Source: a virus. From it: a stretch of DNA of 24,451 nucleotides. Positions 196 through 20,560 of this stretch are shown here, piece after piece; the first letter of the stretch is position 1; each line of letters begins with the position of its first letter. The notes under the pieces were generated by a model, which did no database searches, was not told the origin of the DNA, and worked only from the letters and a program-made list of their open reading frames with translations. Both the position numbers and the translations under genes were made by a program. The stretch covers positions 1 through 24,451 of IMG/VR virus record IMGVR_UViG_3300033149_003270. One strand, given 5' to 3'.

Positions 196-1335
196 TTAAC
201 ATCTATGTTCAAGACATCTCAAGAATACGACAGCGTTCACATTCTCAATAGTCACATCACTTCTGATTGAATAGAATACATAGGTAGCCTCATCTGCTGG
301 AACTCTCTGAGTCTCAATCTTGATGTCTCTCTGCAGCCCGATGATGAGATTGTTTTTCGGAGTAAGCAAAACATCAGTATACTCACCGCCACCCAATAAG
401 CCGTAAGTGCCATCAGCGTCGAGACCGAGATTTGTCGGTATGAGCGGAACATCAACGATTGGAACTTTGCCGTAAGTAGTGGGAGCTTTGCCCGTGAAAA
501 TCGCATCCCCCAAAGCTGTTCCTCTTTGACTTAAAGCTTCTATATAGTCCTGCGTTACCAAATCAGAGTTCATGAATACCATATTGGCAAGCCCATTATT
601 CAGCTTATACTTAGAGGGCATGTTCTTCAGCATCAGATGATACTTGAATTCCCAGTTATATGGTGGATTCGGGTCTTGTTCAGCAATCAATCCGGGAAAA
701 TTGAATTCAGCGTCTGGGTCTGATTTACCGCTTGGGCATGAAGCACCGCTCTCACAAAGACAAGCGTCTTTGATATGAGCTCCACCGGTGATTGAGTTAT
801 AATACTGCTGTCCGACTTGGCTGTGGTTGATTATATACCGCCAACCGTCCCACATGCTGCGGATGTCATCAGCTGCGAAGTTGTTCAAGCCGTGAGTGTC
901 ACCGATATAATAAGCTTCTTCAAGTTCATTGGCAATTTTTTTTGCAACGATTTTCATCAAGTGGTCAAGATAATCATCTTCATTCGATAACGCCCTGATA
1001 TCTTCTAAGTCGTCGTCAAAGACGGCTATAGCACCACGTGCTTTCTCTGTGCTCAGTCGAATCTTGTTGTGAGTCCACTGCTTTTTGTATTTGCTCTCAT
1101 TGAATTGGTCAGCAGGATAAAGAAATCGTCCAGAACCAAAACCAATGGCTCTAATATTCTTCTGCGGTGTGGTCATCTTGATAATTCTTGCATAATTTTT
1201 CATCACCGACTCATCGACTATATAATCGAGGAATCTATCAGCTTCTTCTTCAGTCAAAGAAATCTGCGGCATAGAGATTAGATTGAAGCTCTTTCCGATT
1301 TTAAATCGGGAAAGCAAATCTTTCGTATCTTTCAT
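196..1335 (-). CDS. Major capsid protein (HK97 fold, resembling the P2 gpN-type family)
   Basis: This 379-residue protein is the probable shell subunit of the phage head. Its N-terminal third has the pattern of P2-like capsid proteins: a segment with EEEADRFLDYIVDESVMKNYAR (residues 29-50, read in two halves) followed by MTTPQKNIRAIGFGSGR, then an acidic helix near 107-140 that matches the spine-helix region of HK97-fold proteins. An unusual stretch at about 185-215 contains three cysteines (C192, C194, C200) and is rich in Gly, Ser, Asp and Pro, so it looks like an inserted surface loop. The ATG at 1335 is preceded by AGGAGG at good spacing. It follows a scaffold-like gene and a prohead protease, the usual order in head operons. 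The fold is assigned from sequence pattern and position. Confidence 0.82.
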   Translation of the reverse strand: MKDTKDLLSRFKIGKSFNLISMPQISLTEEEADRFLDYIVDESVMKNYARIIKMTTPQKNIRAIGFGSGRFLYPADQFNESKYKKQWTHNKIRLSTEKARGAIAVFDDDLEDIRALSNEDDYLDHLMKIVAKKIANELEEAYYIGDTHGLNNFAADDIRSMWDGWRYIINHSQVGQQYYNSITGGAHIKDACLCESGASCPSGKSDPDAEFNFPGLIAEQDPNPPYNWEFKYHLMLKNMPSKYKLNNGLANMVFMNSDLVTQDYIEALSQRGTALGDAIFTGKAPTTYGKVPIVDVPLIPTNLGLDADGTYGLLGGGEYTDVLLTPKNNLIIGLQRDIKIETQRVPADEATYVFYSIRSDVTIENVNAVVFLRCLEHRC

Positions 1336-1338
1336 TGT

Positions 1339-2070
1339 TTAATCCTCCTGTGAAATGAGTGAAGGCCACTTTACCCCTTTGTCTTTATCTTTATCATCAT
1401 CATCTTGTCCATCAATGCTTTTTTTAATGCCTTTGCTCTTTTCAAGTTTCTCAATTCTCTCTTTAAGCTCTTTTATAAACTCTTCTTGTTTTTTCTCTTT
1501 CTCTATTCGTTCTTTCTCAATTCTTTCTTTCTCTGCTTTTTCGTATTCAGCCAGCTTCTCTAATTTTTCAACTACCTCGGGCGGAAGCTTTTCACCTTTG
1601 GTGATGTCGTCTTCTTTCTCTTTGATTAGACCCCGAATAATCTCTAATGCTTTCCTGAGCTGCTCAATCGTAGCTTTTGAGAGTTTTCTACCAGCTTTTT
1701 CAACATCAGTAAGTTCTTCAATAATATCTTCTGATTTAGTCGCCGGGTAACTGTAGCCGTATGATGCATATTTTGTCAGCGTCTTAATCGCCTTTAATAT
1801 ATCCGTCGGGTATACGTCTTTGTACTTATTCAAGATATTCAAAGCCCCCTGAATAGCTTTGATTGCTTTTTCATCAAGCTTTTCAGCCTTTGCAATATCT
1901 TCTTCACTCAGCTTAAATTCTTCATCATCTTCACCCATGAAAGATTTCAGAAGTTTGATGAATTCATCCATTTGTTGCCTCCGTTTTAAGATAAAAAATT
2001 TCAATTGATTAGCAGCATTATCTACGAGTGAGATTTCTGCTACATCAATATCTTTCAATTTTCTCGGCAT
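1339..2070 (-). CDS. Scaffold-like coiled-coil protein of the head operon
   Basis: The protein has 243 residues. Residues 1-30 contain the pattern KLKDIDVAEISLVDNAAN, a type of short N-terminal segment seen in phage proteins associated with XkdF-like proteases. The rest is highly charged and helical, with heptad-like EKERIEKERIEKEKK repeats at about 180-215 predicting a coiled coil, and a tail rich in Asp and Lys. Lying between the protease and the capsid gene, it is most simply an internal scaffolding protein that is cleaved during maturation. AGGAG precedes the ATG. The upstream 210-base leader carries a promoter. The scaffold role rests on composition and synteny, not on a recognised catalytic or binding motif. 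Confidence 0.6.
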   Translation of the reverse strand: MPRKLKDIDVAEISLVDNAANQLKFFILKRRQQMDEFIKLLKSFMGEDDEEFKLSEEDIAKAEKLDEKAIKAIQGALNILNKYKDVYPTDILKAIKTLTKYASYGYSYPATKSEDIIEELTDVEKAGRKLSKATIEQLRKALEIIRGLIKEKEDDITKGEKLPPEVVEKLEKLAEYEKAEKERIEKERIEKEKKQEEFIKELKERIEKLEKSKGIKKSIDGQDDDDKDKDKGVKWPSLISQED

Positions 2071-2280: not shown

Positions 2281-5200
2281 CTATTTTGCTTCTGAAGCTC
2301 TTCCACCCATAGAGAAGCCGGTCAATTTACCTGATTCAATCATTGACCAGATATCATCATCAGTAACTTTGACCATGAGCCACCAAGAACCAGCTTTGAC
2401 AATCTTACCGCCTTTTTTAATATCCGTCTCCGGCTGAAAGCACTCTATAATCGGGAAATAATAGCTCTTGCTTTTATGGTTGACCCGTATTCTTTTTGGG
2501 TCTTTTGAATATTTCTCCATGAATCTTTCGATTGCTTTTTCTATCTCTTCTGCATCCGTATAATCACCTTGAGAATCTATCGCATCTGGCTCATAGACAA
2601 CGCCGCCTACTAAATGCTTCTTCTTATCAATCTTTAAAATTTTCAAACCAAAAGACTTAGATTTAAGAAGCTCTTTTTTTAGTTTATCTTTTATATTTGG
2701 ATTTATATTATCTTTGAAACGTTTCGCAGCTTCTCCATTCTGTACTTCTTTCACAGAATCGATGTCGTCAAATCCCCCGGAATGTTCTTTATTATCCGGG
2801 CTTATCCATTTTCTAAAATGTTCTTCACAGAACCATGCATGAGCCATGCCCTCAGCCCAGAGAACCTCATAAATGGGTGGTTTAGAGCACTGCATACATT
2901 TTTCTCTACTGTGTTTGCTTTTCTCTGCTTCTTCTTTATGGTCATCATCTTTGAGCTTGCTCATCATCCAGACCCTTTCTTTCTCGCCGATAGGCACAAA
3001 TGCAAAGAGCCAGTTGCCGTTGAATAACCTGGAGTCTGTGACATGCAGCTTCTTTGCGTGCTCGTCGGCTTTGTATAGCTCCCAGTTGAATGAATCTATC
3101 CGTATCATCGCAGCATACATATTAGCAGTCGCACCGACCTCACCTGGCTTGAACAGCTTGATGCTTCTAGAGCCAGCTTCAAACCACGACATCGGCCCCC
3201 TTATCACCGATATCTTAGGTTCTTCAACTCTCGACTGCTTCCAACCGAACCGCAGCTTCTTGCCTTTCTGCAACAGCTTCGTCAGGCCGCTGATATTACC
3301 AATCATTATTTCTCCACCCTCCCAGTATTTATCACCAGAACGCTGAAGTCTTATATCTATATGAGCACCCTGCTCACCGATTAGTGATTTCAGCATTCTC
3401 TTCAATGTATCGATATTAGCTCTTGCCATCAAGACCCGGCTTTCATTCGTTTTGAGTCTTTTAGCTTCTTCTTCTTTCAAGCCCATAATATGAATCTGTG
3501 CAATGCCACGACCTTTGTCACCAAGCTTGAAATCGATATTGCCATATTGACCGATTGTACCTTCATCATCTGCTTTGACTGCTGGCTGTCCGGGGCCGGG
3601 TCTCTCTTTTCGACGCATCTGACCACCGCATTTTGGACATTTAAGTTCTTTGCAATGAGTGTCAGTTTCTTCTATATGACCGCATTCTATACATTCACAG
3701 GTGAAATTCGCTTTCTGCAGTATATTAGCGTTTCTTGCTATGGTGATAATCTGATTAGCAAAATAAGGTTCTTTCCTCTCTGGGTCAATATCTATTACTC
3801 TCGCCCCAAGCCATGAGAGTTCGCTGTCATGTGGTATGATTTCCTCAACGGCTACCGTGATGATATCACCAACCTTTGCTCTCAATTTTGTGTTGTAAGT
3901 CTTGCCGAGGTCAATGACCTCCATATCACCAATCCTGACCATATTCTCAAAATCTGAATCTCCTTTAAGGACTCCGCATCTGTAGTTATAGCCGCCGGAA
4001 GTTTTGTTCACTTTCAGCACAATGACCTTAATCTCTGCCTCGATTTTGAGTTTAGCCCAACCGGACTCTCTGCCGTCGATTGACCATGTGCTGTTTATAT
4101 CTTTAACGACGATGCCCTCAGATTGTGGGTATTTAGCAAACTTTTTAAACGCAGCTTCTAACTCTGCTCTATTGTTTACCCTCTTATATTCTGTAATATC
4201 AAAATTCTTTGATTTCTTCAGATATTTATTGAAGAAAGATTCTAACTTTTTTCTTCTCTCTATGAACGGCTTCTCATGCAGGTCTTCATTCAAATATGGC
4301 ATATCGAATACGGTGAACATGACTACATCATTCTCTTCAAGCTCTGGCTTCTTAGCCATCAATGTCATCAATTTCACTCTCGGTAACGGCTTTCCGCTTC
4401 TCTCTATACCGAGAGAACTATCAAGGATGAAATCGTCTTTTATCTTCTTCAGCTGCTCTACGATTTGAGGAAAACTCTTTGACCTATCTTTTCTTGATTC
4501 TGTGAGTACTTTGATTCTATCTCCTTGTTTGCAGAGTACGACTCTGATGCCGTTCAACTTCGGCTCTGCAACAAGCTCTCTGTCTTTCGCCCAGTTCCAG
4601 ATTTCTTCAACCGAGAACGCTTCCGTGAGTCCAGCCATCGTCGGCTTCGGTGGGTCAAATCTTCCCATCGGTGTCAATGCGGTTTTCTTCATCTTCTCTT
4701 TATCTAATTCAGCTATAGCAGAGTTCGTATCTTCTAGATGAATGAAAGAAAAACCATCATCTTTAAAGAGTCTTTTGAAATCGTCAATCTTCTTGAATTC
4801 ATGGACATGGGTGAGGTCTTGACGCTTGCCAAGCGGTACGAGAAAGACGACCATTTTCTTTGCTACTCTGACAGCTTCATTGATTGTATTATCTGTGTTT
4901 TTGATATGTTCAAGAGAATGAACAGCGATGACATTATCCCAACTTTCATCATCAAACGGCAGCTTCTCTCTCTCTAAATCCAGCTTGATGACCGATAGAA
5001 CTTTCTTTTTACAGAATCTCAATGCTTCATCACTATTATCAATACCGCTTACCTTTCTACCTGACTGCTCAAGCAGTTTAATCAACCGACCCGTACCGCA
5101 TCCCAAATCAAGCACCGAACCATCACCAAGACGCTTGACCACTTCATAATTATCAAAAAGAAGAGCTTCATCCCAATTATCAAGAGATGTGAAATATTCA

Positions 5201-5775
5201 ACGGATTGTTTTTCTATCTTCTTATTCTCTCTGATTTTGATTCTCTTTGTCTCTTCTTTGCTTCTCAACACCAAATCGAAAAGCGGTATATAAGAGCTGT
5301 GCGGACCTCTCGGAGAATAAATAAAATGCGGCAGCTTCTCCGTCTCTTTCTCAATCAATCTACCAATCTTCAACTCCAGTCCTTCATCTCTATTTGAAGA
5401 ACTATCTCGTATTATAATATCAATATCTTTCGCTTCGGTTGGTGACTTGACGAATGAACCAGCAATTGAAAGATAATTCTCTATAATGACAACATCACCG
5501 AGAGTGCTGACATCAAGCCCGCCGAACATTGCTTTTTTGAATACCTCAATATCGATATCGGTGACCTTTGCATGGGTCAGATTTCTGTCCTTCATCTCTT
5601 TCATCAACAGCTTATATCTACGCAGAAAATCACTTCTCATGAGAACACCGACCTTCGTTTTTCTATTATCTTTAAAATTCTTGTTATACAATTGTACGAA
5701 TCTGAGCCTCAAGCTATATAATTCTTTATCTGATGCATCTTTCAATTTATTCGCTGTTATTTCTTCTATTCTCAT
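2281..5775 (-). CDS. Giant fusion: nucleotidyltransferase, methyltransferase, ATP-dependent DNA ligase-like, zinc modules and XkdF-like prohead protease
   Basis: The chain has 1164 residues and several recognisable modules. Residues about 95-172 form a polymerase-beta-type nucleotidyltransferase (G106-S107, D117-I-D119, third Asp D167). Residues about 210-345 form a class I SAM methyltransferase (VLDLGCGTG at 221-229, GID at 244-246). Residues about 395-675 resemble an ATP-dependent DNA ligase: EPKLNGIRV with candidate nucleotidyl-lysine K406, VFDMPYLN near 489-496, EGIVVKD at 553-559, WAKLK at 573-577, then an OB-like region. A zinc ribbon follows (C693/C695, C698, C713, C716), then about 220 residues of unknown type, a CxxC...CxxH knuckle (C960, C963, C983, H986), and at about 1043-1160 a domain like PBSX XkdF, with YEPDAIDSQGDY, H1100 and TGFSMGG (S1155). 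TAATG couples it to the upstream zinc protein; GGAG precedes the start. The last domain fits prohead protease at this position. The enzymes may ride into the head and be released by cleavage; this is inference. Confidence 0.85.
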   Translation of the reverse strand: MRIEEITANKLKDASDKELYSLRLRFVQLYNKNFKDNRKTKVGVLMRSDFLRRYKLLMKEMKDRNLTHAKVTDIDIEVFKKAMFGGLDVSTLGDVVIIENYLSIAGSFVKSPTEAKDIDIIIRDSSSNRDEGLELKIGRLIEKETEKLPHFIYSPRGPHSSYIPLFDLVLRSKEETKRIKIRENKKIEKQSVEYFTSLDNWDEALLFDNYEVVKRLGDGSVLDLGCGTGRLIKLLEQSGRKVSGIDNSDEALRFCKKKVLSVIKLDLEREKLPFDDESWDNVIAVHSLEHIKNTDNTINEAVRVAKKMVVFLVPLGKRQDLTHVHEFKKIDDFKRLFKDDGFSFIHLEDTNSAIAELDKEKMKKTALTPMGRFDPPKPTMAGLTEAFSVEEIWNWAKDRELVAEPKLNGIRVVLCKQGDRIKVLTESRKDRSKSFPQIVEQLKKIKDDFILDSSLGIERSGKPLPRVKLMTLMAKKPELEENDVVMFTVFDMPYLNEDLHEKPFIERRKKLESFFNKYLKKSKNFDITEYKRVNNRAELEAAFKKFAKYPQSEGIVVKDINSTWSIDGRESGWAKLKIEAEIKVIVLKVNKTSGGYNYRCGVLKGDSDFENMVRIGDMEVIDLGKTYNTKLRAKVGDIITVAVEEIIPHDSELSWLGARVIDIDPERKEPYFANQIITIARNANILQKANFTCECIECGHIEETDTHCKELKCPKCGGQMRRKERPGPGQPAVKADDEGTIGQYGNIDFKLGDKGRGIAQIHIMGLKEEEAKRLKTNESRVLMARANIDTLKRMLKSLIGEQGAHIDIRLQRSGDKYWEGGEIMIGNISGLTKLLQKGKKLRFGWKQSRVEEPKISVIRGPMSWFEAGSRSIKLFKPGEVGATANMYAAMIRIDSFNWELYKADEHAKKLHVTDSRLFNGNWLFAFVPIGEKERVWMMSKLKDDDHKEEAEKSKHSREKCMQCSKPPIYEVLWAEGMAHAWFCEEHFRKWISPDNKEHSGGFDDIDSVKEVQNGEAAKRFKDNINPNIKDKLKKELLKSKSFGLKILKIDKKKHLVGGVVYEPDAIDSQGDYTDAEEIEKAIERFMEKYSKDPKRIRVNHKSKSYYFPIIECFQPETDIKKGGKIVKAGSWWLMVKVTDDDIWSMIESGKLTGFSMGGRASEAK

Positions 5776-5930
5776 TATTTGCTCTCCTTGTAGCCCTCTT
5801 TATGCCCACACCCGGAACGTGGACACTTGAGCATCTTCCGAAAGCCCCTGCGTCTTATAGCGCAACACGCCGGCAGTATAATCATCTTGCCGTTGCATTT
5901 CGGACACAGCCTCTCAGCTACTTGAACCAT
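5775..5930 (-). CDS. Small zinc-ribbon protein
   Basis: This 51-codon gene lies exactly between its neighbours. Its ATG overlaps the upstream stop (TGATG) and its TAA overlaps the start of the giant fusion gene (TAATG). The protein contains LCPKCNGKMI near residues 8-17 and KCPRSGCGHKEG near 36-47, giving two cysteine pairs typical of a zinc ribbon, plus an internal CC pair. There is no clear ribosome binding site, so translation is probably coupled. The perfect fit between two overlaps and the paired cysteines support a real gene. A nucleic-acid-binding or head role is possible, but nothing in the sequence decides it. Confidence 0.75.
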   Translation of the reverse strand: MVQVAERLCPKCNGKMIILPACCAIRRRGFRKMLKCPRSGCGHKEGYKESK

Positions 5931-6190
5931 CAATAAGTGTAAGTCGCTGCGTTAGCCCATATCTTGTTGAACTTAGCACAGCCGTTTGCATATAAAATGC
6001 TCAAGGGATTACCGTTCCCGTCGTAAGATATTTTCGTAATTCTGCAAACCGGTTGCAATATTCTATTCTGGTCACATGGAGCGAATTCACCGATATATTC
6101 TGGATACCATTCATTCCCAATCTGAATAAAGGTCATCCTGATTGCATATTGTCCAGAACTGACATGAAACGGTATTGTTGATTTAGTCAT
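5930..6190 (-). CDS. Conserved small phage protein, head region
   Basis: This protein of 86 residues is preceded by AGGAGG at ideal spacing. Its C-terminal half carries the pattern KISYDGNGNPLSILYANG followed by FNKIWANAATYTY, which I recognise as recurring in uncharacterised phage proteins of head and packaging regions. No signal peptide, membrane segment or catalytic motif is visible. The many aromatic residues and the Gly-Asn turn motif suggest a beta-rich structural protein. It lies between the lectin-like gene and the zinc-ribbon gene, with a one-base overlap to the latter. Function unknown. Confidence 0.75.
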   Translation of the reverse strand: MTKSTIPFHVSSGQYAIRMTFIQIGNEWYPEYIGEFAPCDQNRILQPVCRITKISYDGNGNPLSILYANGCAKFNKIWANAATYTY

Positions 6191-6205
6191 TTTTGCCTCC
6201 TGATT

Positions 6206-6300
6206 TTATGACGTCGGCCCGAATGACCGATACATCCTGAAATAATCGAACGGAGCTGAAATCGCATTAAAGTTTGGATTTACATTCTTTGCAAAGAAGC
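6206..6300 (-). other. Out-of-frame C-terminal tail of the lectin-like gene (apparent -1 frameshift)
   Basis: In the frame shifted by -1 from the gene at 6280-6840, the codons from about 6300 to the TAA at 6206-6208 read FFAKNVNPNFNAISAPFDY and then FRMYRSFGPTS. This looks like the natural C-terminal strands of a lectin-type domain. The main frame stops after an unrelated SLQRM. Inserting one base near 6300 would turn GAC GCT into GAC GGC and restore the common motif YSTDG, giving a 211-residue protein. A perfect 14-base palindrome (TTCTTTGCAAAGAA, 6285-6298) lies directly at the junction. Confidence 0.7.
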
Positions 6301-6840
6301 GTCTGTACTGTACTCTGTGTAAACATTGCCTTGAAGACAGAAAATATCAACTTTCATTCTCAGATATATCGGGAGCGTAGTCACTGCATTGCTTGTCGGA
6401 TAGTTATTATTAAAGTAGCTGGCAAGCCCATCAATAGGCTGGTTGCTGTCTTTCGTTCTACCAAACATGAATGTGTAAGCGCCGGCGTTTGCGTCTACGT
6501 ATGAGCTAATGAATAATCCAGCCATAGTGAAGTCATTTACCGTATAAGAATTAAGCTTAACTTCATAAATAAATGGGCATCCGGGTGCTCCAATCACGAG
6601 TCTTGGACAATTGTTAGCTCCGTTATCCCAGTAGCCATCAATGCCATCTGCTACCGATAAAGTACAGACATCTCCCGATTCGCTTATTGAACCATTCTTT
6701 GCAAGCTGCCACCAAGCCCAGAAAATCGAGTTGTCGTCAAAATTATCTAAGAATTGGATTGCATCTTCTGTGACGGCGGCTGCCTCTGCTGGCTCATAAT
6801 AGTCCATTTTCCCTGTTATCGGATTAAATTTATAAGGCAT
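6280..6840 (-). CDS. Lectin-like (concanavalin-type) virion protein, frameshifted near its end
   Basis: The open frame gives 186 residues. It starts with MPYKFNPITGKMDYY, an N-terminal motif I recognise from many phage structural proteins. From about residue 30 it resembles a concanavalin-like beta-sandwich (DNFDDNSIFWAWW, TMAGLFISSYV, YTFMFGRT, LRMKVDIFC). Such domains bind carbohydrates or decorate virions. AGGAGG precedes the start. The last few residues are probably wrong: the family-like C-terminus continues in the -1 frame to 6206, so the intact protein would have 211 residues. This may be a sequencing error, a real mutation or, less likely, recoding. Its place among head genes suggests a head decoration or adsorption protein; this is inference. 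Confidence 0.7.
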   Translation of the reverse strand: MPYKFNPITGKMDYYEPAEAAAVTEDAIQFLDNFDDNSIFWAWWQLAKNGSISESGDVCTLSVADGIDGYWDNGANNCPRLVIGAPGCPFIYEVKLNSYTVNDFTMAGLFISSYVDANAGAYTFMFGRTKDSNQPIDGLASYFNNNYPTSNAVTTLPIYLRMKVDIFCLQGNVYTEYSTDASLQRM

Positions 6841-6858
6841 TTTTCACCTCCTAATTTT

Positions 6859-7713
6859 TCATGATGCTGCTACCCAACAGCATTCACACTGCGGGTGAGC
6901 TGGTATTAAGCCAGAAGCTTCATCAAGAGTATAGATTTTACCATCTATATTCTCTAGACAATACTCACAAGCTTCTTCATCTGCGACACCCTGAACTCTC
7001 TTGATTCCAATCTGGCCAAAGCCCTGCAGAGTGCCTTCACTGAGTGCTGATGCTGTCTCCGTTCTGGCAATCATCTGAGTTCTGAACCTATGCAGCCTAT
7101 TTGCATATCTCTCTACCAATGAGGCAATCCTCTGCTCTGGCAGTGCCTGCTCTTCTAATAACAATCTGTATTTTGATACAGCTCCAGCTTGTTTAGATGT
7201 CAATCCGACAATCGGTCTCAATTCTTTTGCAATCTTCTGAATGCTCTTGCCGTAATTGACGCCGGCCTTAACTTCTTGTCGTATCGCTTTTTTCGTCTCT
7301 TCAATGACTTCAGTCACAAGCTTAGCTGTATGTTTTTCAGCCCATTTGACTGCTGGAACGCCGAGAATGTCGAAACGTGGTTCAAGCTCTTGTTTTATGA
7401 CCTTTCTCTCAACTACAGCTTTGCCGCCTTCAGCTAGAATCTTCAACAGCTCTGGCTTCAAGATTCTTTTGCCTTCTTCTATGATAGCATCCCAATCAGC
7501 AAGCTGCTCTGTGAATGTCTCCGGCTTTCTTGTCTTCACTCTTATCAAACCTCTCTGTAATTCTTTTTTCATATATTTCATAAATTCATTTATCTTTGGT
7601 ATCAATCTTCTCTCATTTAATCGCCTCAATCGTCTGGTATTGGTGAACGTTCTTTTTTTAGATTTCTCTACTATATCTTTCATCGTATCTTTCAGCGTCT
7701 CTAATAAATCCAT
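6859..7713 (-). CDS. Phage head morphogenesis protein, MuF/SPP1 gp7-like
   Basis: The protein has 284 residues. The N-terminal two thirds are helical and basic. The C-terminal 100 residues carry the MuF signature: RTQMIARTETASALSEG, then GVADEEACEYCLENIDGK, and finally IPAHPQCECCW, with a CxxC pair and an HPxCxC end likely to bind zinc. In Mu and SPP1 this family is a minor head protein associated with the portal and packaged DNA. The gene lies shortly after the portal gene, as expected. No strong ribosome binding site is seen before ATG 7713; the upstream gene ends four bases earlier, so coupling is likely. No toxin domain is fused to the C-terminus. Confidence 0.88.
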   Translation of the reverse strand: MDLLETLKDTMKDIVEKSKKRTFTNTRRLRRLNERRLIPKINEFMKYMKKELQRGLIRVKTRKPETFTEQLADWDAIIEEGKRILKPELLKILAEGGKAVVERKVIKQELEPRFDILGVPAVKWAEKHTAKLVTEVIEETKKAIRQEVKAGVNYGKSIQKIAKELRPIVGLTSKQAGAVSKYRLLLEEQALPEQRIASLVERYANRLHRFRTQMIARTETASALSEGTLQGFGQIGIKRVQGVADEEACEYCLENIDGKIYTLDEASGLIPAHPQCECCWVAAS

Positions 7714-7717
7714 CTCA

Positions 7718-8029
7718 TTAATGCTTCTTTTTCGTTGTCGGGATTATCATCTGAGGCCGTTCGATAATCGGCATTCTGGCCTTCTTCGCTGCTCTCTGTG
7801 CTTCTCTCTGCTTCTTCAAATCTTCAAATTCTTCATCGGTCATGGTGCTGATGTAGGTGATGTTCGTATCATCATTTACCGGTATAAGTATCTTATGGTT
7901 GCCTTCGATGCTGTCGAATTCTAATGCCTTACCAAACGCCTGCGCAATGGCTTTCTTTCTCCTCTCATTCAGGTCACCCTTGACAATCAATGATATCTCT
8001 GGCCTTTTGAAATAGATAACAAGCGGCAT
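7718..8029 (-). CDS. Small hypothetical protein between portal and MuF genes
   Basis: I place the start at ATG 8029, one base after the portal stop, because AAAGGAGAG lies just upstream; it gives MPLVIYFKRPEISLIVKGDL and 103 residues. A longer frame beginning at 8065 would overlap the portal gene by 35 bases without such a site. The first half is predicted beta-rich; the second half is charged and helical, with a basic tail. I recognise no family. Its position suggests an accessory head or connector protein. Confidence 0.75.
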   Translation of the reverse strand: MPLVIYFKRPEISLIVKGDLNERRKKAIAQAFGKALEFDSIEGNHKILIPVNDDTNITYISTMTDEEFEDLKKQREAQRAAKKARMPIIERPQMIIPTTKKKH

Positions 8030-8030
8030 A

Positions 8031-9488
8031 TCACTCTCCTTTCTTTGATTTTTTATATTCATCAATTATTTCATTGACTTTGGCATGAAGCTCCTCAATG
8101 GTTGCTTCTCTTCTTGTGATACTCTCTTCCCCAACGGGCAAGTAATTCGATGCGATATAATAATCGTCGCCATGGTCTACCTTCTCAAGATTCAGCTTGT
8201 CTCTGATAAAATTCACGTTGATTGCTCCGACACTGAAGAGTGTCTGCCAGCGTTTCACTTCTGCATCTAAATCTCTCGTATCAATCTTATTGAATTGAAA
8301 ATTGATATCTTCACAATTCAAACCATTATGGATAATGCTCTTCGTTAATATCCTATTAACAGCTTTCTGCAGTGGTGCGATTGTAGAATTGATGTATATC
8401 GGGGTCATCTCTTTCGCCGTAGAGCCACCGAGCGAACCAGACTCTGCGATGCCAATTCTATATGGTGGCATCTTATAAGCACTGAGGATTTCATCTCTTG
8501 ACTGCTTATAATATATGGTAAATGAACCTTCTTTCACGTCGACTGAAAGCGGCTTCCAAGTCAGAGTTCCACCAGTCGGCAGCTCCAACACAAGAGTCTT
8601 ATGAGCATTATTTGAGCCTTTGATTTCTACATCAAGAAAATTATTGATATACTTCATTGAATTTTCTTCCCAATCACCCTCAAGCGTCACGATAGCTGCT
8701 GGCACTCCATAATTATCAAAAAATGATAGATTATAATCTCTGATGCTGATGATTCCCCTAACAGCTCCGATAGAGCCAAGAACATTCGGAGCTCCATAAT
8801 ATGAACTCTTTGGATAATAATTTCTATAATAGATTATCTCATTTGCAAGATTCTTATCTGTCTTTGAAGATACTGGCTCACCGGTATCAGCATCATAATT
8901 CTCCTCTATACCGATTTTCTTGAACCAACGATATTTATTCTCTCTAATCTGACAGAACAATTTTTTATTCTGATGAATCCGGATGGTATGTGCTGGTATA
9001 TGCCAGAGCCCATTGACTTCTTTCGTCACTGGGTCTCTGCTCACTTCGATGGTGAACCAACCAGTAACACCCCAATCAACAATACATTTCTCAATGATAT
9101 CTTCAATCGCTTCTTCTTCTTCATCGTTCGGGTCTTCTAAAAATTCACTTGTTTTCTTTTTCTGTTCCTCAATTTCTCTCGCATTAACCTCTTCTCTCGC
9201 TTCTGTAAGCATCCATCCTGGACCAACGACATCTTTACCGATTTGACGAACACATGAATCGAAATAAGAGCAGTTCTCCTGCAGAATAAGAAGACCATTC
9301 ACATTGAATGGCAACGGCTTCAAACCTTTATCTGAAAGAAACCTCTGTTCTTCTTTGAGCTGTTTAGAAGTGCGTTTCTCTGCTTTCTGTAATATCGAAA
9401 ATGGGAACAATCCTCTATTGGTCTTTATATAATGAACCTTGCCAAGCTTCGCTTTACCACGGGTAGAAGATTTTGCCTTTTCTGACAT
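8031..9488 (-). CDS. Phage portal protein
   Basis: This protein of 485 residues lies directly after the large terminase gene and overlaps it by 35 bases. The pattern fits portal proteins: a basic flexible N-terminus, a segment near residue 75 with CVRQIGKDVVGPGW, a central portion with the WHIPAHTIRIH type of beta segment, a long helical stretch around 235-300, the motif MPPYRIGIAESGSLGGSTAKE near 340-360 (read in two parts), and a C-terminal helical crown. Portals form the dodecameric DNA channel at one head vertex. GGGAGGTGACGT precedes the start at good spacing. Assignment rests on synteny (terminases, portal, MuF, protease, capsid) and on these patterns. Confidence 0.88.
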   Translation of the reverse strand: MSEKAKSSTRGKAKLGKVHYIKTNRGLFPFSILQKAEKRTSKQLKEEQRFLSDKGLKPLPFNVNGLLILQENCSYFDSCVRQIGKDVVGPGWMLTEAREEVNAREIEEQKKKTSEFLEDPNDEEEEAIEDIIEKCIVDWGVTGWFTIEVSRDPVTKEVNGLWHIPAHTIRIHQNKKLFCQIRENKYRWFKKIGIEENYDADTGEPVSSKTDKNLANEIIYYRNYYPKSSYYGAPNVLGSIGAVRGIISIRDYNLSFFDNYGVPAAIVTLEGDWEENSMKYINNFLDVEIKGSNNAHKTLVLELPTGGTLTWKPLSVDVKEGSFTIYYKQSRDEILSAYKMPPYRIGIAESGSLGGSTAKEMTPIYINSTIAPLQKAVNRILTKSIIHNGLNCEDINFQFNKIDTRDLDAEVKRWQTLFSVGAINVNFIRDKLNLEKVDHGDDYYIASNYLPVGEESITRREATIEELHAKVNEIIDEYKKSKKGE

Positions 9489-10737
9489 ACGTCACCTCCC
9501 TTTTCTTTTGTTCTGATTCTTTCTCTTTCTCTTTTTCTGACCCTTTGTTTATGCCAATAAAATGTACTCTTCCCTTCTTATGTCTTCTTTTATCAAGAGC
9601 CAGAATCAATTGTCTCAATGCATCAACAGCATGGTCATTTTCTTTATACGGCTTCTCTGTGCCAGTCTGATAATGATATGTCTCAATCTCGTCGAGAAGA
9701 TTTGGGCATTTTTTTTTGAATACCTTCAATCTATTCGTTCTGATTCTTGCATTGACAGCTTCAATGCCTTTCTGGATATCATTGTCGCCGCTATGGATAT
9801 CAATCTTCATTCCTCTGAGTTCTTCAATCTCTCTCTTTCCGCTTGGGTCACCGAAATAGGTGATATCTTTCATGTGTTTCGCTATATCTTTCAACAACAT
9901 ATGGGAGACATAGAGTTCATCATAGATATAAAGCACATCATCAGGAGAGAGAGCACCCTTCTCATTGGCATGAGGATTATTGAAGCCGAAATCTGTGCCG
10001 CCGAGCTTGAGCCAGTCATCTGGTATTTCAAACTCTTCTTCAACGATATTATTTGAGTCAAAGTCTGGGTAGATAAGACCCTCCATCTTTCTGAATTGAC
10101 CCTTATATCTCATATCAAATAATCTCTCTGATAGGTCTTTTTTCGCTCTCTCAAACTCTCTTTCCGGATAATACGGATTATCTATCGATTTGAAATTTAT
10201 CACCATATAATTGGGGTCACCCTTTTTCCAATGAAGATAGAATTCATGATACAACCAGTTCAAGCCGTATGGAGTTGTTGTGAGCAATGCTCTACCTTCT
10301 TTCATGCCAAGACGAGCCTGAATAGCCACCCATGCCATGTATTTCATCTGACCAGCTTCATCAAGCCAAGCTGCTCTATATTGTCCAGCTTCTAGCGATT
10401 CTGGCCTATCTGCAGTACCAAACCATATCTTGCCACCAGTCGGCAGTAGATACACATTATAACTCGGCTTATATTCACCCTCTAAATCTGTATTCCTAAA
10501 AGAATCTCTCAACGCTGGCACTGTCGTCCTCATCAACATCTTATATGTCGGAGCTACGACAAGATACTCATCTCTCGGATATTTCTCTATCTCAGAAAAT
10601 AACCACCATGGCCCAGTATATGTTTTCCCACCACCAGTGCCGCCAATGAGGCCGATGAATCTATTCTTGCAGTTTAATGCCGTCGATTGATGTGCGTATA
10701 AACGGACTTCTTTATATTCAATCTTTTGAATTTGCAT
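9454..10737 (-). CDS. terL: Terminase large subunit (ATPase and nuclease)
   Basis: The enzyme pumps DNA into the head and cuts it. In the 427 residues the ATPase motifs are clear: Walker A GGTGGGKT (32-39), Walker B AAWLDEAG, and the coupling motif LLTTTPYG. The RNase H-like nuclease domain follows with GGTDFGFNNP, TYFGDPSG and NDHAVDALR, carrying the three metal-binding aspartates. The tail is basic and Lys/Glu-rich. I start at ATG 10737; an alternative TTG start lies three codons earlier. It overlaps the small subunit gene by 20 bases and the portal gene by 35, so the three are translated as one block. Confidence 0.95.
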   Translation of the reverse strand: MQIQKIEYKEVRLYAHQSTALNCKNRFIGLIGGTGGGKTYTGPWWLFSEIEKYPRDEYLVVAPTYKMLMRTTVPALRDSFRNTDLEGEYKPSYNVYLLPTGGKIWFGTADRPESLEAGQYRAAWLDEAGQMKYMAWVAIQARLGMKEGRALLTTTPYGLNWLYHEFYLHWKKGDPNYMVINFKSIDNPYYPEREFERAKKDLSERLFDMRYKGQFRKMEGLIYPDFDSNNIVEEEFEIPDDWLKLGGTDFGFNNPHANEKGALSPDDVLYIYDELYVSHMLLKDIAKHMKDITYFGDPSGKREIEELRGMKIDIHSGDNDIQKGIEAVNARIRTNRLKVFKKKCPNLLDEIETYHYQTGTEKPYKENDHAVDALRQLILALDKRRHKKGRVHFIGINKGSEKEKEKESEQKKREVTYVRKGKIFYPW

Positions 10738-11098
10738 TGTTCTCAAGTATCAATCTGACTGGCTTCTTCTCGTCTCCAGTATGGAGCATCTCTTGACGGT
10801 CTGTCATACCGAGCCAATTCTTTGCTAAGAATATCTGGACTGATGCATTATGCCGTCTTGTAGCATTCTCAAACATCGCTTTCATCAAGCTGACATTTCT
10901 ATCTGCTTTGCCCTTTTTTAATGCGGACAATAAATGAAGATGCTGTTTTTTCCAGTTCTTGAATGTGTTTGGATGGATGCCAAAGAACCATGCGATGTCT
11001 TCTTCATTAACGCCCAGAGTCGCAAGTTTTCTCGTTTCCTCTATATATTCCTCTTTGAATACAGATGGTCTCCCCTTTTTATTTTTTTTCTCTGTCAT
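10718..11098 (-). CDS. terS: Terminase small subunit
   Basis: This 126-residue protein probably recognises the packaging site and loads the large subunit. A helix-turn-helix is visible near residues 30-52 (GVNEEDIAWFFGIHPNTFKN), followed by a pattern common to small terminases: a helix with LKKGKADRNVSLMKAMFENA and then IFLAKNWLGMTD. The basic N-terminus with KKNKKGRPSVF is also typical. GGAG lies ten bases before the ATG. It directly precedes and overlaps the large subunit gene. Confidence 0.88.
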   Translation of the reverse strand: MTEKKNKKGRPSVFKEEYIEETRKLATLGVNEEDIAWFFGIHPNTFKNWKKQHLHLLSALKKGKADRNVSLMKAMFENATRRHNASVQIFLAKNWLGMTDRQEMLHTGDEKKPVRLILENNANSKD

Positions 11099-11113: not shown

Positions 11114-11989
11114 TTATAATGATATCGGGACGAATTTAGAGCCAGCCTTTTTAGCAAATATCATCCCATAATCATTCACGCTTTTAGGAATTTTGACGCC
11201 TTTTCTCTTTTTCAATTTATTATGTTTGAATGGACGATAATCGACTTGATGCTGCCATCTCCCCCATTTCCAAGATATTTTAGTAACATCCGGATGCTGC
11301 CGTTGAAGAGAACGAGCCATTTCTAATCTTCCGTCAAACTTCTCATCTCGTTTATAGAGTTCATCCGTATTACCGCCCTTCATTATCATTGTCCGCATTT
11401 TATCTTGTGTGAAGATATAAAAGAGAATCGTGCACCAACCATCTTTTAAAGCTCTCAATGATAAATCCGTATCTTCGTTATATCTTCCTCGCCAGCGATA
11501 AGGGATGTCGTTCTTTATCAAGATGCAAGAATAAATCCGAGTATTCAGAATAAAAGGCTTGTTCTCTTTTCTCGTCGGTTGTTTCCTCCCCATAAAAGTA
11601 TAATCAGGCCCGGCTAAAGCAACGTTCTCATATCGCTCAACGAAATCTTCCATCACCTTGAAAAATGTCCCTGTCAATACCTTAATTCTTTTATTTTTAT
11701 GCAATCTCCTGAATGCCCTTATATTGTCATCCAGAATCCAATGTCTTTCTGCACCTATTGAAATTGAATGTTCCCAGACCCAATTCCGAGCAGGAATTGA
11801 GCCTTGACCGAGATTGCTAAACGGAAGTGTTAGAATCTTCTTTGGGTCAATCACTGCGGCATAATTATCATATTCCTGCGGTTCAATAACGATATGATAA
11901 GGAGCATCCATTCTCTCAAGTGCTTTACTCGTATATCGGGATTTCCATCTGCCTTTTGAGATGATATAAATCGGATATTTAGGAAGCAT
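11114..11989 (-). CDS. DNA-base glycosyltransferase, TET-associated (TAGT) type
   Basis: The protein (291 residues from ATG 11989) matches what I know of the TET-associated glycosyltransferase family of phages, which adds sugars to oxidised 5-methylpyrimidines in phage DNA. Characteristic segments are YPIYIISKGR at 5-14, IVIEPQEYDNY, GQGSIPARNWVWEH at 61-74, HWILDDNI with the metal-binding DD at 87-88, NTRIYSCILI, RWRGRYNEDTDLSLR at 165-179 and MKGGNT. ATG 11989 has GAGGT eight bases upstream and overlaps the ParB-like gene by 11 bases; ATG 12004 is an alternative, and the frame stays open to 12121. The neighbouring ParB-like gene fits known modification clusters. No methylase, TET enzyme or hydroxymethyl-nucleotide synthase is visible here, so the acceptor base is unknown. 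Confidence 0.82.
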   Translation of the reverse strand: MLPKYPIYIISKGRWKSRYTSKALERMDAPYHIVIEPQEYDNYAAVIDPKKILTLPFSNLGQGSIPARNWVWEHSISIGAERHWILDDNIRAFRRLHKNKRIKVLTGTFFKVMEDFVERYENVALAGPDYTFMGRKQPTRKENKPFILNTRIYSCILIKNDIPYRWRGRYNEDTDLSLRALKDGWCTILFYIFTQDKMRTMIMKGGNTDELYKRDEKFDGRLEMARSLQRQHPDVTKISWKWGRWQHQVDYRPFKHNKLKKRKGVKIPKSVNDYGMIFAKKAGSKFVPISL

Positions 11990-12635
11990 CAATGCATACC
12001 TCATCTTTATAATTTTGCCTTTTCCTCTCCGGGAACCAGATGTATTTGGTTTTTTCCGTAATCTCTTGCTCAACCAATTTAGAGAATTTCTTAATATCTT
12101 CTTCAGTCTTGAAATGAACAAGCAAACTCTTCACCGCTTCACCTCTATCAGAAAACTCCGGCATCCCCTGCCATTCTTGATTTGGGTCTATATCCGGTCC
12201 AACTCGTTCGATTATCTGCTTTAAATCCATCCACGGCTCTGTCAGGTCTACGTTATAATCTTCCAATTCAATCTCTTCTATATACGGGTAGACGAGCTCC
12301 GCCAGTTCTTGTTCGATATATTGACCGAATCTCATGTTATCAAGCAGAGAGAGTTCAATCTTCTCTTTCTCATTCTCCGGAAAATTGAGGCTTATCCATA
12401 TATCTCTCTCTTCAGGCCATTTCAAGATATGCTTCATCGCATGCCAACGCATATTGCCACCGCCAGTGATATAAAAAGAGTCTTCTTTCCAGCATGTGAG
12501 GGTCTGAAACAAACCCTTTTCTTTGATGCTCTTCGCAAGTTTCTCTAATTTTTCTTTCTTGATATTTCTGGGATTCTTTTCCCACGGTTTAATTTGTCCG
12601 AATCTCACTTTCTTAAATTCCGGCTCTTTCAACAT
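11979..12635 (-). CDS. ParB/sulfiredoxin-like domain protein
   Basis: The protein has 218 residues. The N-terminal half is a ParB-like fold: QIKPWEKNPRNIKKEKLEKL (14-33), the helix with AKSIKEKGLFQTL, and ITGGGNMRWHAMK (56-68), which corresponds to the nucleotide-binding GxRR motif of the family. The C-terminal part has VHFKTEEDIKKFSKLVEQ, a pattern seen in phage ParB-like proteins linked to DNA modification. Family members bind DNA and may hydrolyse CTP or ATP, and some are nucleases. Its overlap with the glycosyltransferase gene suggests a joint role in DNA modification or packaging rather than partition. No ParA is seen nearby. GGAGG lies 12 bases before the ATG, with AAAGAG closer. Confidence 0.82.
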   Translation of the reverse strand: MLKEPEFKKVRFGQIKPWEKNPRNIKKEKLEKLAKSIKEKGLFQTLTCWKEDSFYITGGGNMRWHAMKHILKWPEERDIWISLNFPENEKEKIELSLLDNMRFGQYIEQELAELVYPYIEEIELEDYNVDLTEPWMDLKQIIERVGPDIDPNQEWQGMPEFSDRGEAVKSLLVHFKTEEDIKKFSKLVEQEITEKTKYIWFPERKRQNYKDEVCIDAS

Positions 12636-18571: not shown

Positions 18572-19267
18572 CTATTCCCAATCTATTCCAAAGTGATTAT
18601 AAAGCTCTGCATTAGGCCGCCGATAATATTCAGTAAGAAAGTCAATAACTTCCTTATCAGGCTTTGGATAAGATTCTTTCTTTATCGGATTCTTTTTCTT
18701 TGGGTCATAATATAGAATTTTTTCTACTCTCTCAGGTATATTGAGGAAATGGTTAAGAATGAAATTAACTACATCTTCAGGCATCTCAAAAAACGTTTCT
18801 GCTTTAATGATAAAAAAACTTATTCTCCCAAAAAGACTAACCCAATGTTTTAAATACTCTATATATCGGCCTCTTTTTAGCAGCTCAGAGTCCGGATTGA
18901 ACAGCTCTGACTTTGATATCTTATGCTGCCAATGCCAATAATTCGACCATGCTCTATCAACAGGATTTCTTAATAGAACAATAAACTTATGGCTTGATTC
19001 AGGCAAATCTCTCTTGATTCTTATAGGTGCTGCGAATGAGTACAGGTAACCTGGTGTCGTATCAAAAGATATCTTCTCTTTTTCTGAAGCGAAAAATTTC
19101 TTATAATATCTGAGTCCTTTTTGATAGTTATAATCCACATCGAAAAAATGTATTTCTTTCTTCTTAGCAGGTGCTATTAATTTCGCTTGATTGAGTGTTT
19201 CTCTGAGTGAATTAGTGCCTGAGCGACTTGCACCGATGATAAAAAAGTCTGGAAGTCTTTTCATCAT
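18572..19267 (-). CDS. PAPS-dependent sulfotransferase
   Basis: This 231-residue enzyme should move a sulfate from PAPS to a hydroxyl or amine of a carbohydrate or similar acceptor. The PAPS loop is FFIIGASRSGTNSLRE (8-23), the next conserved segment is KKEIHFFD (37-43), followed by TTPGYLY (70-76) and the 3'-phosphate site FIVLLRNPVDRAWSNYWH (95-112), the order of NDST-type sulfotransferases. At 231 residues it is slightly shorter than many bacterial relatives but complete in motifs. Two adjacent ATG codons start the frame; AGAGAG is about nine bases upstream. It may alter a host surface polysaccharide or a virion sugar; this is inference. A relic of a related start lies at 19556-19609. Confidence 0.88.
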   Translation of the reverse strand: MMKRLPDFFIIGASRSGTNSLRETLNQAKLIAPAKKKEIHFFDVDYNYQKGLRYYKKFFASEKEKISFDTTPGYLYSFAAPIRIKRDLPESSHKFIVLLRNPVDRAWSNYWHWQHKISKSELFNPDSELLKRGRYIEYLKHWVSLFGRISFFIIKAETFFEMPEDVVNFILNHFLNIPERVEKILYYDPKKKNPIKKESYPKPDKEVIDFLTEYYRRPNAELYNHFGIDWE

Positions 19268-19609: not shown

Positions 19610-19919
19610 TGTCTTCTCTTTTATTCTGTTTAGATAAAATCTTCTTCATTAAATCCCTCACTGCTACAATTTCTTTCGGAGCTGTAATAAAAATATCTTC
19701 AGGATAAATCCGTAACCACCATTTACAGACATCATAAAGTCCTGCTTTTCGGCCGTTTTCTAAAAAAAGCTCTATCATTTCATCTTTCAATTCTTCAATC
19801 TCACTATCTCTATCTTCTTTTATATTATTAACATTCCAATCGACTTGATGATACTGCAAATTTTGTAAGAATCTCAACCTCAAAAGAAGTTGTCTTATAG
19901 CTCTTTTGAATCTTCTCAT
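19602..19919 (-). CDS. Small hypothetical protein downstream of RNase HII
   Basis: The start is ATG 19919, which overlaps the RNase HII stop by four bases and has AGAGGG upstream; a longer frame to 19985 would lie inside the RNase gene. The 105 residues begin with a basic helix (MRRFKRAIRQLLLRLRFLQN), then an acidic part, and end with CKWWLRIYPEDIFITAPKEI and a basic tail. No family recognised. Coupling to RNase HII suggests a DNA-linked role, without proof. Confidence 0.65.
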   Translation of the reverse strand: MRRFKRAIRQLLLRLRFLQNLQYHQVDWNVNNIKEDRDSEIEELKDEMIELFLENGRKAGLYDVCKWWLRIYPEDIFITAPKEIVAVRDLMKKILSKQNKREDNE

Positions 19920-20560
19920 TTCGTTTTTCCCTCTTGTATTTTTTTCCACCATGATTGACCATAGTTTACCCTCATATATGGACAAGCACCGTCCTTTCTG
20001 ATTTTTTCATACATAACCTTATCGGGTGAACCATGATTCCGTTCGATATTATATCCTGGGTAGAAGCTTCCGAATCCAGTGAAGAGTGCGTCCGCATAGA
20101 TTCTGGCAACAATGGAAGCTGCACTCACTTGATATATGATTTCATCAGCATTGACCATGCATTCAACTGGTATAGCAATCTTGCTTTTGAAATAATTCAT
20201 CCAGCCTTTTGAGAAAGGTCCGTCAATGATTGCCTTCTCCGGTTTGATATTCATCCCTAAGAGCTGCAAATACAGATTCTCAAAGGCTGTGGCTATGGCA
20301 TAGTTCCGGGCTTTATAGATTCCAACACTATTGATTGAGTTTACGGTTGCTGGCACAATCGAATAAATGCTGTGATAATGCAGCTTCCCGAACAGATTTA
20401 ACCTTTGTTTATGGGTGAGTTGTTTAGAGTCTTTTACTCCACGCACTCTTCTCAATGCATATAGAGCACATATCACGCAGTCGCCAGCTAATGACGGGCT
20501 GTAATTTACTTCATCAATTCCTATTAGATGCATCTTATTTTTTTTGAAATTCTTCTTCAT
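19916..20560 (-). CDS. RNase HII-like ribonuclease, divergent
   Basis: The protein has 214 residues and the four acidic catalytic residues of RNase HII: D16 and E17 in IGIDEV, D113 in IIDGP, and D157 in AASIVARIYAD. DSKQLTHKQR (44-53) is also conserved. It should cut RNA in RNA-DNA hybrids, for example primers or R-loops during phage replication. The substrate-reading GRG motif that normally follows GIDEA is replaced by NYS, which may change specificity. No good ribosome binding site is visible; ATG 20533, just after the upstream stop, is an alternative that removes a Lys-rich tip. It lies among replication genes. Confidence 0.85.
   Translation of the reverse strand: MKKNFKKNKMHLIGIDEVNYSPSLAGDCVICALYALRRVRGVKDSKQLTHKQRLNLFGKLHYHSIYSIVPATVNSINSVGIYKARNYAIATAFENLYLQLLGMNIKPEKAIIDGPFSKGWMNYFKSKIAIPVECMVNADEIIYQVSAASIVARIYADALFTGFGSFYPGYNIERNHGSPDKVMYEKIRKDGACPYMRVNYGQSWWKKIQEGKTK

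Follow-up and report, generated by a model that had tools for sequence, protein, structure and literature searches.

How does a prohead protease come to be made as the last part of a chain of nucleic-acid enzymes, and what might such a chain do for the virus that encodes it? The question is raised by an IMG/VR virus record (IMGVR_UViG_3300033149_003270, positions 1 to 24,451; the window in what follows is this whole 24,451-nt stretch). In it, a single uninterrupted frame of 1164 amino acids (aa), with an ATG start and an AAGGAG-like ribosome-binding site 5′ of it, encodes, from N to C terminus, a DNA polymerase beta (Pol-beta)-type nucleotidyltransferase (NTase), a class I S-adenosylmethionine (SAM) methyltransferase (MTase), an ATP-dependent ligase (nucleotidyltransferase and OB parts), a zinc ribbon, a domain resembling the 3′-phosphoesterase (PE) of LigD, a second zinc module of the CxxC..HAWFC type and an XkdF (S78_2) protease (Table 1). 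The gene lies in a head operon ordered TerS-like, TerL, portal, MuF, polyprotein, scaffold-like and major capsid protein (MCP). An earlier note, made from the sequence of the window, had described such a single-frame fusion, and its modules are borne out by Pfam matches to MTase_11, DNA_ligase_A_M and XkdF, by the NTase motif and profile and by both zinc modules; its inventory was incomplete, however, as the LigD-PE-like domain had been missed. The explanation that we favour on balance is that the protein is a polyvalent head polyprotein that would process itself and supply the prohead with a DNA-end repair and modification kit, to be delivered together with the viral DNA.

The fusion is found well beyond the window. 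Nine IMG/VR contigs encode proteins with 81-88% aa identity, some of them partial: L002 and L003 have the complete architecture in one frame, L004, L005 and L006 have all of it except the second zinc module, and the incomplete close relatives, among them the partial L007-L010, either do without that module or run off the end of their contig. The ratio of nonsynonymous to synonymous substitution (dN/dS, Nei-Gojobori, per domain) is mostly 0.02-0.1, with a maximum of 0.23 in one short module, and strong purifying selection acts on every domain. The single-frame copies and the low dN/dS rule out an assembly artefact, a concern that the earlier note had itself raised and left to homologues. Core-domain searches found about 20 further, more distant viral contigs, in which an NTase-ligase-PE-XkdF core is retained in proteins of 940 to about 2140 aa while the remaining modules vary. 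XkdF is C-terminal in all relatives whose 3′ end was readable, and the slot between MuF and scaffold/MCP is the same wherever the flanks are long enough. The earlier proposal that the enzymes travel together with the head protease agrees with the locus, with the C-terminal protease and with the presence of the zinc module on portal and MuF proteins as well. The survey of phage genomes that it called for gave a divided answer, the IMG/VR relatives carrying the fusion while a ligase-XkdF fusion was absent among 50,697 phage records (E 1e-5). ANMV-1 as a query returned zero IMG/VR relatives, and no earlier description of this fusion was found in the open-licence papers searched.

The individual assignments differ in the directness of their evidence. 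The protease matches Peptidase_S78_2 (PF14550, 2e-26; 92.8 bits against a cut-off of 24), and its candidate His and Ser residues are invariant in six sequences; we take XkdF to belong to the assemblin-like group of peptidases. The MTase matches MTase_11 at residues 222-308 (8e-17) and is of the MetW/Methyltransf_11 kind, not a cap MTase; its identification as a DNA MTase was also rejected. For the NTase, for which the earlier note had proposed a profile search as for the other three enzymes, no Pfam family scores above its cut-off with the window copy. The pattern hG[GS]..DxD..FDL is nevertheless kept in 12 relatives, with GS-x(8)-DxD conserved and the third acidic site nearly so, and the family profile retrieves cellular helix-turn-helix (HTH)-NTase proteins that match Polbeta and NTP_transf_2. 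The motif hG[GS]-x(7-13)-Dh[DE]h and the profile thus both identify a Pol-beta NTase, and the copy in one relative (L073) matches DNA_pol_B_palm (8.5e-5); a PDB profile search with the NTase alignment found nothing relevant. A full-length AlphaFold model, which the earlier note had suggested, was uninformative (6 sequences; predicted local distance difference test, pLDDT, 37).

The ligase belongs to its family with little doubt (DNA_ligase_A_M, PF01068, residues 384-577, 1e-27; 97.2 bits against a cut-off of 26.2), and the region that follows is presumably its OB fold, as in the ligase family. The earlier note had passed over its altered motifs: the window has KLNG and ILDSSLG in place of the motif I KxDG and the motif III Glu. 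Motifs read by eye show KxDG and DGEL in L011, L018 and L033, and across the family MTase-bearing proteins have KLN[G/A/S] and have lost the motif-III Glu, whereas proteins that carry a metallo-beta-lactamase (MBL) fold or simply lack the MTase have canonical KxDG and DGE; the two ligase clades split with support 1.0. The altered ligase is among the most constrained parts of the protein (omega about 0.03) and is therefore unlikely to be a relic.

The PE-like domain was reached by way of intermediates. Four of its residues, H762, H805, D807 and R809, do not vary across 14 sequences and resemble the QxH..HxDxR of LigD PE. The window copy matches that of L022 (tblastn 1e-6), and the copies of L022 and L025 match LigD_N (PF13298) at 2.8e-5 and 2.3e-6, both under the curated cut-off. 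A phmmer search of the PDB with the L022 domain returned only 3p43 and 5dmp, weakly, both of them archaeal PE structures. By hhalign, the window-type set aligns with L022 or a combined L022/ANMV-1/L025 set at 96-98%, and such intermediate sets align with PE proteins of archaeal genomes at 95-98%, while the direct comparison with cellular PE failed (probability 0.5%). Foldseek of the modelled domain against PDB and BFVD gave no significant match, its weak CYTH/tunnel-fold matches (probability at most 0.25) were not used, and a PDB profile search with the alignment yielded nothing relevant. Residues 747-940 look like a strongly diverged homolog of LigD PE, and because both the direct profile comparison and Foldseek fail we call them LigD-PE-like and not LigD PE. 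A separate observation concerns L025, a 133-kb contig in which a 608-aa protein (9263-11089), apparently of three LigD-PE-like domains, is flanked by an NTase-ligase gene on one side and by a protease-like gene with the MCP on the other.

Modules are exchanged within the family. The L011 protein, 46% identical to that of the window, has an MBL fold where the window has its MTase, and the per-domain identities (NTase 90%, ligase 33%, PE 63%, XkdF 84%) accompany a swap that coincides with domain borders. Since the MTase is replaced by an MBL fold in L011, L016 and L026 and absent in L018 and L033, it is dispensable. The simplest architecture is NTase-ligase-PE-XkdF (L018), to which L033 adds zinc modules; L037 and L072 have NTase-MTase-ligase-zinc-PE-XkdF, and L036 the same with Dam; L022 has NTase-Dam-MTase-ligase-UDG-PE-XkdF (1559 aa from its ATG); and L073 has NTase-Dam-Dam-Dam-MTase-ligase-zinc-PE-x-XkdF (about 2140 aa, 4290-10706), a head polyprotein with three Dam-type methyltransferases in succession. 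The variable modules mostly make sense on the DNA side: uracil-DNA glycosylase (UDG, 2e-25), one to three Dam MTases (2e-19) and the MBL fold. ANMV-1 and L025 carry the NTase-ligase-PE set unfused to a protease, yet it lies beside portal-like or protease/MCP genes. A further recurring module of about 118 aa, which we call Ext (SPTFAYKAVYG...GLEVDKHIKDAWLEQLN), occurs at protein positions 547-665 of L068 and also in L029, L030, L073, L078 and L098, between PE-like and XkdF or elsewhere, and has no Pfam family in the members scanned.

We propose that one chain is translated, and that its C-terminal XkdF, probably with the zinc module, would carry it, along with scaffold and portal, into the prohead. 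At maturation, cleavage by the protease would fall in the scaffold, the capsid protein and the linkers of the chain itself, the cut probably following the Lys of hydrophobic-x-K↓[A/S]. This would leave in the head, where they would meet the packaged DNA, an NTase, a ligase, a LigD-PE-like 3′-end cleaner and an MTase, with Dam MTase, UDG and MBL fold in relatives. Entering the next cell with the DNA, the kit may process and seal ends or nicks, and so circularise the genome or repair damage from packaging or inflicted by host nucleases and glycosylases, and it may mark or protect the DNA ahead of viral gene expression. Circularisation, nick sealing and repair of host damage are the most economical of these roles.

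The predicted cleavage motif was examined in ten representatives in which domains were mapped by BLAST and lysines of linkers compared with those of domains. Hydrophobic-x-K-[A/S] was enriched at linker lysines (odds ratio 2.9, p 2e-5); K[AS] alone gave 1.8, and the controls K[DE], K[GT], K[ILVMF], R[AS] and E[AS] gave odds ratios of 0.8-1.4, none significant. Sites of the same general appearance (IGKS, IQKG, FQKA, MKKA) stand just ahead of the conserved start of several MCPs.

The second zinc module supplies indirect evidence of residence in the head. The ribbon is conserved in L011, L016, L033, L068 and L077, and the cysteines and histidines of the second module, for which no Pfam model was found, are mostly conserved in 7 sequences. 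This CxxC..AHAWFC..H module occurs on 43 further open reading frames (ORFs), some of them duplicates of each other. It is fused to Portal_Mu in five (two with MuF, the others alone or with a 2H phosphoesterase) and to XkdF in seven, and also to Dam, NTase, ligase and PolyA_pol. For 30 of the 43, a portal, protease, scaffold or MCP gene is part of that ORF or no more than about 6 kb away. This context suggests, as the best indirect evidence available, that the bearers are head components, and the module is possibly a general head-loading tag. The portal-type fusions are in L090, L100, L121, L123 and L124. Two zinc-module proteins (L097, 4171-6711; L116, 3634-6669) contain an intein splicing domain. 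In L125, L126 and L127 (contigs of 87-497 kb; 3838-8397) a 1520-aa protein looks like a classical polyvalent protein: besides the zinc module it has a 2H-like N-terminus, recognised by eye, an HE-x2-H site and a PolyA_pol NTase.

Several known systems resemble the protein in part. Polyvalent proteins of phages and conjugative elements (Iyer et al. 2017, PMC5512222) likewise join several unlike enzymes in one chain in portal-terminase phages, their assemblin-like peptidases are always C-terminal and given a role in virion assembly, and packaging and injection are predicted. The window protein shares at least two unlike catalytic domains, a virion-gene locus in a portal-terminase phage and a C-terminal peptidase; the zincin peptidase, common though not obligatory in that class, has no Pfam match in it, and an HE-x2-H site is present in the zinc-module relatives L100 and L125. 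The portions of PMC5512222 consulted report no DNA ligase, LigD-PE or UDG ("ligase" occurs 3 times, "glycosylase" never). The family fits the known polyvalent theme and extends it to a DNA-end repair set of ligase, PE-like domain and UDG. Packaging of enzymes in the head is described in PMC5512222 for T4 Alt, which is injected, and for P1 DarB/DdrB, of which DarB protects DNA in cis; these have other activities and no XkdF fusion. The ANMV-1 "ATP-dependent DNA ligase" (AJP62006.1; KP703175 3200-5800; 866 aa) is also NTase, ligase and PE-like domain beside a portal-like gene, but it is without XkdF, MTase and zinc ribbon and has a canonical KFDG ligase. XkdF proteases such as those of Lactococcus phages and psiM100 ORF12 share the protease domain and are likewise encoded in the head operon, and in the isolated phages examined they are 160-410 aa long, alone or with scaffold. 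Bacterial LigD and archaeal PE proteins similarly join a ligase to a 3′-phosphoesterase homolog; relative to LigD, the window protein has a Pol-beta NTase in place of the PrimPol polymerase domain and a strongly diverged PE-like domain, with no PrimPol family match in the protein, and none of the scanned window ORFs matched Ku.

Delivery to the next cell is not the only use to which such a chain could be put. The polyprotein is encoded with late head genes and the ANMV-1 set adjoins portal/terminase genes, both of which would be expected if the enzymes worked in the cell that makes the particles, while the genome matures and is packaged (nick sealing, cleaning of terminase ends, methylation). 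The fusion would then only fix how much enzyme is present, when, and where at the portal, before cleavage releases the enzymes to be lost or degraded. HK97-type heads do expel small fragments. That portal and MuF proteins as well as XkdF repeatedly bear the zinc module, together with the polyvalent precedent of PMC5512222, favours residence in the particle without proving it, and we regard action in the producing cell as unlikely, if more probable than the alternatives that follow. Action on RNA, whether repair of tRNA or rRNA cut by host defence or modification and capping of RNA ends as the earlier note had partly envisaged, appears improbable. An MTase class that is not DNA-specific, a weak secondary RNA_ligase match (5e-5 in L011) and the 2H phosphoesterase and PolyA_pol NTase of other zinc-module proteins are consistent with it, but the top ligase matches are DNA ligases, there is no family match to a cap MTase or RNA triphosphatase in the protein, and DNA repair or modification is to be preferred because the relatives' partners (UDG, Dam, LigD-PE-like) are DNA enzymes. 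Capping in particular was rejected, mRNA_cap_enzyme appearing only weakly in L011 (0.016), and a Hen1-like RNA repair system was set aside. We give slightly less credence still to the idea that the ligase and NTase of the MTase lineage have changed catalytically and work not in repair but as modules for DNA binding or some other nucleotidyl transfer, directed at a target in host defence. Motif I KLN[GAS] and the lost motif-III Glu in that well-supported clade point to it, and PMC5512222 proposes that NTases of polyvalent proteins modify proteins; the strong purifying selection and the intact Lys406 and motifs IV and V speak against it.

Delivery of a self-processed kit in the virion, which we continue to prefer, has several observations to contend with. 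The sequences themselves establish the fusion with its conservation and selection, the locus, the exchange of modules and the homologies, whereas packaging, cleavage sites, injection and DNA as the substrate are predictions from them; all close relatives are metagenomic. The MTase-linked ligase does not have the motif-I Asp and motif-III Glu typical of such enzymes, which makes ligation by it uncertain. The window PE-like domain matches no LigD_N and 0 Pfam families, and its confident model (pLDDT 91) retrieved no PE structure from the PDB by Foldseek. The linker motif was noticed before it was tested and the sequences share ancestry and are not independent, so it stays a prediction; for the window by itself the enrichment falls short of significance (p 0.07). 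Lastly, the fusion is broken or split in L016, L026, L029, L030, L039, L101 and L117, in the first five of which the chain is in two frames. The break within the MBL domain is identical in two assemblies (L016 7745-7781 and L026 2824-2879), which points to a split gene or a programmed frameshift rather than random error.

If the kit is indeed delivered, DNA repair would be a virion function whose enzymes are released by capsid maturation, and the named, mutable candidate protease sites and the zinc tag would give a handle on the poorly understood loading of enzymes into phage heads. The natural module swaps offer a ready comparative set, and the ligase clade with unusual motifs invites biochemistry. 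A broader proposal, which we make only tentatively, is that tailed viruses, probably of archaea, use a self-processing virion polyprotein to deliver a kit for DNA break and base repair (NTase, LigD-like PE, ligase, UDG, Dam, MBL) before viral genes are expressed. The zinc module would be a dedicated tag for loading into the head, equally suited to portals, MuF, proteases and free enzymes. The one match in the genome collection is a contig binned as Pacearchaeota (L026), which is weak host evidence.

Table 1. Features of the polyprotein and its head-gene neighbours, in window positions
Feature	Residues	Coordinates	Strand	Basis
Whole polyprotein	1164 aa	2281..5775	-	ORF call, Pfam, dN/dS
Pol-beta-type NTase	86-180	5236..5520	-	GS-x(8)-DxD and FDL acidic residues
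Class I SAM MTase	197-352	4720..5187	-	Pfam
Ligase nucleotidyltransferase domain	369-580	4036..4671	-	E-P-K406-L-N-G motif I, SEGIVVK motif IV, WAKLK motif V
Ligase OB-fold region (presumed)	581-686	3718..4035	-	known ligase architecture
Zinc ribbon CECxECG..CPKCGG	694-727	3595..3696	-	seen directly
Candidate self-cleavage site before PE-like domain	AVK734↓AD	3574..3576	-	inference
LigD 3′-phosphoesterase-like domain	747-940	2956..3537	-	family-invariant residues
Zinc module CMQCS..AHAWFCEEH	~963-1028	2692..2889	-	first two residues just upstream in some alignments
XkdF/Peptidase_S78_2 prohead protease	1045-1162	2290..2643	-	Pfam; invariant H1100, S1155
Further candidate self-cleavage sites	K688 LQK↓A, K952 AEK↓S, K1038 LLK↓S			inference
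Terminase large subunit		9454..10746	-	family matches
Portal protein		8031..9488	-	family matches
MuF-like head morphogenesis protein		6859..7713	-	family matches
Scaffold-like protein		1339..2070	-	N-terminal match to positions 1-49 of phrog_3017, a head maturation protease family
Major capsid/virion structural protein		196..1335	-	phrog_1623; IGK↓S near N-terminus

Other genes of the window deserve brief mention. A 52-aa zinc-ribbon-like ORF (5775-5933, minus strand) has a stop that overlaps the polyprotein ATG (TAATG), which suggests translational coupling. The window also encodes a sulfotransferase (6e-18; 18572-19267) and an RNase HII (2e-17; 19916-20560), both on the minus strand. A TET-associated glycosyltransferase (PF20691, 4e-43) adjoins a ParB-like gene (11114-12121 and 11979-12635, minus strand), so that cytosines of the viral DNA may be modified and glycosylated, with a possible tie to base-excision defence.

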